Source: a virus
IMG/VR virus record: IMGVR_UViG_3300020419_000014
Location: 1-64,000 of that record
Direction: 5' to 3' (one strand)
DNA: 64,000 bases
Both the position numbers and the translations under genes were made by a program. Within the stretch, counting starts at the first letter, position 1. Each line of letters begins with the position of its first letter. The notes under the pieces were generated by a model. That model was not told the origin of the DNA, made no database searches, and was given only the letters and a program-made list of their open reading frames with translations. Below are positions 859 through 1,206 of the stretch, one piece after another.

Positions 859-887
859 TTGACACTTATAAATATGTATGTTAAAGT
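859..887 (+). promoter_or_regulatory. Sigma70-like promoter for the leader/tRNA unit
   Basis: TTGACA at 859-864, a 17-bp spacer, then TAAAGT at 882-887 (4 of 6 matches to TATAAT). The predicted start is near 894. A T4-type late motif TATAAATA (867-874) lies inside the spacer, so the site could serve host-type and late transcription. Confidence 0.65.
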
Positions 888-909
888 ATACACATAATAA
901 GGAGTGAAC

Positions 910-972
910 ATGAACAAGATAATACTACAATTGATACAATGGTATCCGACAATAGGGAGGGGTATGTCTTGA
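910..972 (+). CDS. 20-aa leader peptide candidate
   Basis: A short ORF (MNKIILQLIQWYPTIGRGMS) with a good AAGGAG ribosome site at 899-904, five bases before the ATG. It has four ATA codons (919, 922, 934, 952), one TGG (940) and one CCG (946). The downstream tRNA genes read UGG (Trp), AUA (Ile-type UAU) and CCR (Pro). It lies between a promoter and a terminator hairpin, the layout of an amino-acid biosynthetic leader. Bases 958-963 (AGGGGT) inside the ORF can pair with 1001-1006 of the terminator 5' arm, as an antiterminator would. Translation and function are inferred. Confidence 0.5.
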   Translation: MNKIILQLIQWYPTIGRGMS

Positions 973-999
973 TCTAAGTTCAACGAATATTTTAAGACT

Positions 1000-1033
1000 A
1001 GCCCCTAGCAAGAAATTGTTTAGGGGCTTTTTT
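1000..1033 (+). terminator. Rho-independent terminator / attenuator hairpin
   Basis: The 8-bp stem AGCCCCTA (1000-1007) / TAGGGGCT (1021-1028) encloses a 13-base loop and runs into a T-run to 1033. tRNA-Trp starts at the next base. The hairpin sits 28 bases after the leader-peptide stop, so it may control read-through into the tRNA array. The 5' arm has an alternative partner at 958-963. Confidence 0.8.
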
Positions 1034-1108
1034 ATGGGTGAAGTGTCAATGGTTGCACGTCAGTCTCCAAAACTGAAAGACAGGGTTCGATTCCTTGCAC
1101 CTATGCCA
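1034..1108 (+). tRNA. tRNA-Trp (CCA anticodon)
   Basis: The acceptor ATGGGTG pairs with CACCTAT (one G-U). D-stem GTGT/GCAC, anticodon loop CTCCAAA giving CCA, T-arm CAGGG TTCGATT CCTTG, discriminator G, encoded CCA at 1106-1108. It has an ordinary class I shape and begins directly after the terminator T-run. Confidence 0.92.
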
Positions 1109-1112
1109 AAAT

Positions 1113-1206
1113 GGTCCTGTAGTTTAACGGTAAAACACCCGGCTTATACTCGGCACAGTCTCCAGATTAGAGAGCGATCCTGGTTCGAATCCAGGCGGGA
1201 CCACCA
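1113..1206 (+). tRNA. tRNA with UAU (Ile, AUA) anticodon and expanded variable region
   Basis: Acceptor GGTCCTG/CGGGACC (one G-U), D-stem GTTT/AAAC, T-arm CCTGG TTCGAAT CCAGG, discriminator A, encoded CCA at 1204-1206. The anticodon loop CTTATAC places UAU at 1145-1147, as in minor tRNA-Ile reading AUA. The anticodon stem has a C-C mismatch at its first pair (1138/1154). The variable region (1155-1178) is 24 bases, with a possible 4-bp stem (1159-1162/1170-1173), which is not normal for tRNA-Ile. Functional status is uncertain. Confidence 0.8.

Follow-up and report, generated by a model that had tools for sequence, protein, structure and literature searches.

Why does a viral tRNA array stand behind a 20-codon reading frame and an intrinsic terminator? 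We consider it very probable that transcription of a phage tRNA operon is controlled here by a ribosome-mediated attenuator of the trp/his type; the mechanism is inferred, no transcript data being available. The DNA in question, here called the window, comprises bases 1–64000 of a 66,192-base viral record. Its phage proteins include a T4-type clamp loader and baseplate-type proteins, and its tRNA-ligase matches Prochlorococcus phages P-SSM2 and P-SSM7. These features point to a T4-like marine myovirus as the putative source.

All elements of the locus lie on the + strand. The sigma70-type promoter (859–887) consists of TTGACA (859–864), a 17-nt spacer, and TAAAGT (882–887); its spacer is overlapped by TATAAATA (867–874), an octamer that resembles T4 late promoters and was recognized from motif counts. 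The Shine-Dalgarno sequence AGGAG, at approximately 900–904, precedes the leader ORF (910–972), which extends from ATG at 910 to TGA at 970–972 and encodes the 20-codon peptide MNKIILQLIQWYPTIGRGMS. The ORF contains ATA at 919, 922, 934, and 952, TGG at 940, and CCG at 946. It is followed by the intrinsic terminator (3:4; 1000–1033), with arms at 1000–1007 and 1021–1028 and a T-run to 1033, which folds at about -16 kcal/mol. A simple terminator scan of the window did not detect this terminator, probably owing to its bulge and loop. The end of the T-run abuts tRNA-Trp(CCA) (1034–1108), with no second promoter between them; tRNA-Ile(UAU) (1113–1206, 94 nt) and tRNA-Pro(UGG) (1208–1284) complete the arrangement. 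The promoter, ribosome site, ORF, terminator, and three tRNA genes are each found where the preliminary description had placed them, as are the four ATA, one TGG, and one CCG codons counted there.

Several segments of the transcript can pair in mutually exclusive ways. The ORF-start strand (915–919) has as its partner in untranslated RNA, judging by covariation, the stop-codon region (967–971), and the codon strand, or region 1 (942–947), is able to pair with 960–965. Region 2 (958–972) combines the G-run AGGGGT (958–963) with GTCTTGA (966–972). Region 3 (992–1006), which forms the antiterminator with region 2, combines TTAAGAC (992–998) with the 5′ arm of the terminator, GCCCCT (1001–1006). 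In this antiterminator, the 966–972/992–998 helix is stacked below the 958–963/1001–1006 helix. The latter pairing, already proposed in the preliminary description, is indeed present and is part of a longer helix (-17.9 kcal/mol, z = -2.76); neither the start/stop helix nor the late-promoter motif had been mentioned there.

The proposed sequence of events is as follows. RNA polymerase would start at approximately 881–895, and a ribosome would start translating the leader of 20 codons. A shortage of charged tRNA for UGG or AUA (elsewhere in the family, also for UGY, UAY, CAR, GGN, or CGY) would make the ribosome stall before the G-run. Region 2 would then pair with region 3, the terminator would be blocked, and the polymerase would proceed into the tRNA genes that supply the scarce anticodons. 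A ribosome that has reached the stop codon would cover the G-run. In untranslated RNA, two helices would form, one between the ORF start and the stop region and one between the codon strand and the G-run, and these should favor the terminator as well. Stalling, antitermination, and read-through into the operon are inferences made without RNA data.

Relatives of the locus were collected by scanning IMG/VR with two complementary patterns, one of which fixed only the 3′ arm of the terminator and the Trp anticodon loop, and the other only the end of the leader and the 5′ arm of the terminator. Both patterns gave the same arrangement. Since the first pattern did not contain the leader and the second did not contain the array, leader and array were each found unsought. 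After removal of duplicates, 81 leaders from marine phage contigs remained, 76 of them with readable arrays. In every relative, a promoter, an ORF of 15–22 codons, and a terminator precede the tRNA array. The first tRNA of the array is Trp in 71/74 cases of one compilation; among the three others, two contigs end inside tRNA-Trp and one has a degenerate tRNA-Trp. TGG is present in nearly all leaders, which fall into start/stop classes ATG...TGA, GTG...TAA, and ATG...TAG, while the sequence of the leader peptide varies widely. Three leader regions, used as queries against 50,697 phage records, returned tRNA bodies or nothing, i.e., no leader of a cultured phage; a fourth query of these records, with poorly chosen coordinates, returned tRNA bodies only. 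A scan of genome contigs gave almost exclusively chance matches, the sole true member being a 335-kb contig (L353) binned in a Neomarinimicrobiota MAG. In one relative (L245:306-427), the leader is retained next to a degenerate-looking tRNA-Trp with an altered anticodon loop and no ARAGORN call, possibly a decaying array.

Comparison of relatives for conserved leader codons and for compensatory changes had been suggested in the preliminary description. As to the codons, the content of the leader tracks the content of the array in reading frame 0, down to the choice between AUA and AUU. Thus, AUA occurs in the leaders of 19/19 arrays that hold tRNA-Ile(UAU) or a CAU-anticodon tRNA, compared with 5/57 of those without (p=1e-13); the leaders that lack AUA use AUU. 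Analogously, a cognate leader codon is present wherever the array holds the tRNA for Cys (42/42), Pro (32/32), Tyr (6/6), Gln (6/6), Gly (7/7), and Ser(UGA) (9/9), and CGY is found in 3/3 leaders of Arg(ACG) arrays vs 2/73 others. The leaders themselves illustrate the rule: those of Trp-only arrays read MSQTNTTYITCWPPSGGMS, with AUU; those of Ile(UAU) arrays read MIKTNTICIICWPPNGGMF, with three AUA; those of Tyr arrays contain ...YLYWCPP... or ...FYWYPP...; those of Arg(ACG) arrays contain ...KCWRR... (CGC CGC) or ...FRWC... (CGU); and those of Trp-Gly arrays contain GGA...GGU UGG. Frames 1 and 2 carry no codon/tRNA signal for AUA, Tyr, or Cys.

Because kinship among sequences inflates such tests, independent pairs were drawn on a tree of the non-ORF sequence. 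These pairs agree with the rule for Ile (13/13), Tyr (5/5), Arg (3/3), and Cys (9 vs 1), but Pro, Gln, Gly, and Ser are each non-significant alone, and the Pro and Ser signals fail. Four held-out leaders obtained with other patterns kept the AUA rule (4/4), with one Ser tRNA lacking its codon. Other exceptions are Arg(GCG), with a leader codon in 0/5 cases, and several isolated tRNAs for Glu, Ala, or Ser(GCU) that have none in their leaders. Genome-wide codon preference was considered as the cause of leader AUA and rejected, as the genome-wide AUA share differs little between the two groups (0.37 vs 0.30; in leaders, 62/69 vs 7/62). The choice between AUA and AUU is synonymous; for this reason, the signal is that of decoding, and a signal borne by the peptide is unlikely. 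It should be noted that CCG in the leader of the window is weaker evidence than ATA or TGG, since Pro codons have a second role, in the C-rich strand opposite the G-run, and are also present in the leaders of arrays that lack tRNA-Pro.

Every array with a CAU-anticodon tRNA has AUA in its leader. The eight distinct CAU tRNA sequences share a C at position 4, and none has an anticodon stem of the initiator type. This suggests, as far as sequence features can, that they are Ile2 tRNAs reading AUA rather than Met tRNAs. Ile2 tRNAs are substrates of TilS. The tRNA-Ile(UAU) of the window has a long variable arm, unusual for Ile tRNAs, that is kept in relatives. One leader (L202:639-787) has three AUA codons before an array of Trp and Cys only, without an Ile tRNA; a nearly identical leader (L173) is accompanied by Ile(UAU) as well, suggesting that the former may have lost its Ile tRNA recently.

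Compensatory changes were assessed in an alignment of 62 distinct leaders and were found to keep the pairing between the G-run and the 5′ arm of the terminator. In this pairing, 94.7% of the cells are paired, with low values when the partner is slid, and eight cells of the antiterminator are changed on both sides vs 1.9 in shuffled data, as exemplified by GAGGGC with GCCCTC in the leaders of Gly arrays. The G-run pairs better with its own than with a swapped terminator arm (0/2000). The 958–963/1001–1006 pairing is thus more than a chance match, insofar as sequence comparison can decide, for it recurs in approximately 80 distinct leaders with covarying pairings. The terminator helix is likewise backed by compensatory changes. 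The ORF start (ATGnTCAAGAC or GTGTTAAGA) and the stop-codon region (GTCTTGACGT or TCTTAACGC) are the two strands of a third helix. In 62/62 sequences, a start base A is accompanied by T, and G by C, at the partner column; the helix has 37 double-changed cells vs 10.2 in shuffled data and an energy of -10.1 with its own partner vs -8.0 with swapped ones (0/5000). The C-rich codons past TGG are able to pair with the G-run (mean z of the hairpin, -1.0), which would account for the Pro and Cys codons that are also found in arrays without those tRNAs.

The distance from the start of TGG to the G-run is at least 12 nt in 68/69 arrays, and that from the G-run to the stop codon is 11–12 nt in 72/77. 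A ribosome protects roughly 12 nt past the start of its A-site codon; hence, a ribosome at or before TGG leaves the G-run free, while one at the stop codon covers it. The earlier claim that a ribosome stalled at the control codons leaves 958–963 free fits this spacing, the stalling itself being inferred. In masked folding, the probability of the antiterminator is 0.98 with a ribosome at UGG and 0.00 with a ribosome at the stop codon. At equilibrium, the full-length RNA contains the terminator in all states, the stalled one included; therefore, the switch must be kinetic and operate while the RNA is still being transcribed, like that of the trp model (PMC1183508). In pre-terminator RNA without a ribosome, the antiterminator is predicted to form (P=0.93) unless the upstream helices form first.

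A sigma70-type site is present upstream of 64/72 leaders, and the TAAATA core of T4-type late promoters, usually 10 nt downstream of TTGAC, is present upstream of 67/72, compared with 24% in shuffles. In three relatives (L118, L241, and L251), the late-type motif occurs without a recognized sigma70 match. Both types of promoter could drive the leader. In the window, TATAAATA is strongly under-represented (3 copies vs 11 expected), and the copies, at 867, 12814, and 32255, are each located just upstream of a Shine-Dalgarno sequence and ATG, which is consistent with putative T4-type late promoters.

Other explanations of the locus have to be weighed against these data. If the ORF were a small-protein gene of the usual kind, ended by its own terminator, transcription of the tRNAs would be separate and the codon match would be accidental or inherited. 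In favor of this, no transcripts are known, and some arrays of related phages lack a leader, tRNA-Trp being immediately preceded by a promoter (e.g., L018). We nevertheless regard it as very unlikely, because the peptide varies widely and yet its codons follow the array, because even the synonymous choice between AUA and AUU follows the Ile tRNA content, and because the terminator abuts the tRNA (1033/1034) with no promoter between. The synonymous codons speak in the same way against a nascent peptide that senses something by arrest, as TnaC or ErmL, or that acts in trans. The conserved C-terminal end (G-G/R-G-M-S) would be expected of such a peptide, but this conservation is accounted for by the RNA pairings of the G-run and GTCTTGA, and two leaders (L042 and L150) stop before reaching it; the odds of this explanation seem to us slimmer still.

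The position before tRNA genes, together with a terminator and an antiterminator, might also suggest an element to which tRNA binds directly, as in a T-box, with no need of translation. The codon signal, however, is frame-specific inside an ORF with a Shine-Dalgarno sequence and a start codon, and one leader serves several tRNAs at once. Moreover, a search of Rfam at gathering score gave tRNA matches only, with no T-box and no other leader family, so that the conserved T-box sequence and specifier loop required of a T-box are not found. We can hardly give this possibility any credence. T-box riboswitches share with the element the sensing of tRNA charging and the control by terminator and antiterminator, but they bind uncharged tRNA directly, whereas the sensor here is likely the translating ribosome.

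The structural criteria of a ribosome-mediated attenuator are met by a short ORF with Shine-Dalgarno sequence and start codon between promoter and operon; by control codons that match the products of the operon (apart from Arg(GCG) and a few single tRNAs); by an intrinsic terminator between the ORF and the first operon gene; by an alternative antiterminator helix that excludes the terminator; by a protective 1:2 helix in untranslated RNA, although its kinetic priority over the antiterminator has not been demonstrated; and by spacing that frees region 2 at the control codons and masks it at the stop codon. The attenuator with leader peptide envisaged in the preliminary description is thus supported by the ORF, the pairing, and the conservation of leader codons in relatives, its mechanism still being inferred.

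The closest known systems are the attenuators of amino-acid operons (trp, his, ilv, leu, thr, and pheA leaders; Elf & Ehrenberg, PMC1183508). Unlike these, the phage element regulates tRNA genes and not biosynthetic enzymes, its codons specify several amino acids at once in accordance with the array, the regions of its start and stop codons form a covarying helix, and its sigma70 and T4-late-like promoters overlap. As the criterion of biosynthesis genes is not met and no Rfam leader family is matched, the element is a variant by target and not a member of the amino-acid-operon leader families. Theta ribozymes next to phage tRNAs (PMC10879173) are likewise RNA elements tied to phage tRNAs, but they are ribozymes with a part in tRNA-based recoding and do not attenuate by reading codons. 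Phage tRNAs that evade anticodon nucleases or retron effectors (PMC10264068, PMC11555353) replace depleted host tRNAs, as is proposed here. In the main text of PMC10264068, the reason why phages carry tRNAs appears as a matter disputed for decades, and attenuation and promoter terms led to no regulatory element in that text. No attenuator of phage tRNA genes was found in the open-access literature; a report elsewhere is not excluded, subscription journals being largely uncovered. Within these bounds, supply-on-demand control of viral tRNAs appears not to have been described before.

Such control would extend attenuation from amino-acid synthesis to tRNA supply in the form of a compact multi-input sensor. 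The codons that, when decoded slowly, should turn on the matching tRNAs can be read from each leader, so that codon compensation, tRNA depletion, and counter-defence become testable. The cause of the scarcity is an inference that sequence cannot settle: codon demand, decay of host tRNAs, or anticodon nucleases (PMC10264068, PMC11555353) may each be responsible. We suggest only tentatively, and with more doubt than conviction, that in this lineage the tRNA arrays serve as an inducible reserve for emergencies: the leader would sense in real time, codon by codon, the destruction of host tRNAs, whether through host anticodon nucleases or phage-driven shut-off, and only then would the replacement set be released. 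If this were true, the leader codons would be a direct record of the host tRNAs depleted during infection.

Two further observations were made in passing. In an unrelated phage contig (L133:9112-9280), a short ORF (MKLLNIHQWPNQF...) stands directly after a TATACTTG box and is followed by a terminator and an array of Trp, Pro, Gln, His, Arg, and Ile(UAU) tRNAs, with matching leader codons ATA, CAT, CAG, TGG, and CCC. It is possibly a second attenuator, but this is only a hint from a single example, a search for its relatives having returned the contig itself only. In the window, within 1–838 and upstream of the leader, a gene similar to class II aminoacyl-tRNA synthetases (PF00152, D/K/N type) is cut by the contig start and is followed, at approximately 737–838, by a tRNA whose D-arm is Leu-like, whose variable arm is long, and whose anticodon loop is CUGUUUA, with anticodon GUU (Asn). 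This pairing of a synthetase-like gene with tRNA-Asn recurs in many of 80 related loci; it would be unusual for a phage synthetase-like gene to have a class II tRNA-Asn of its own.
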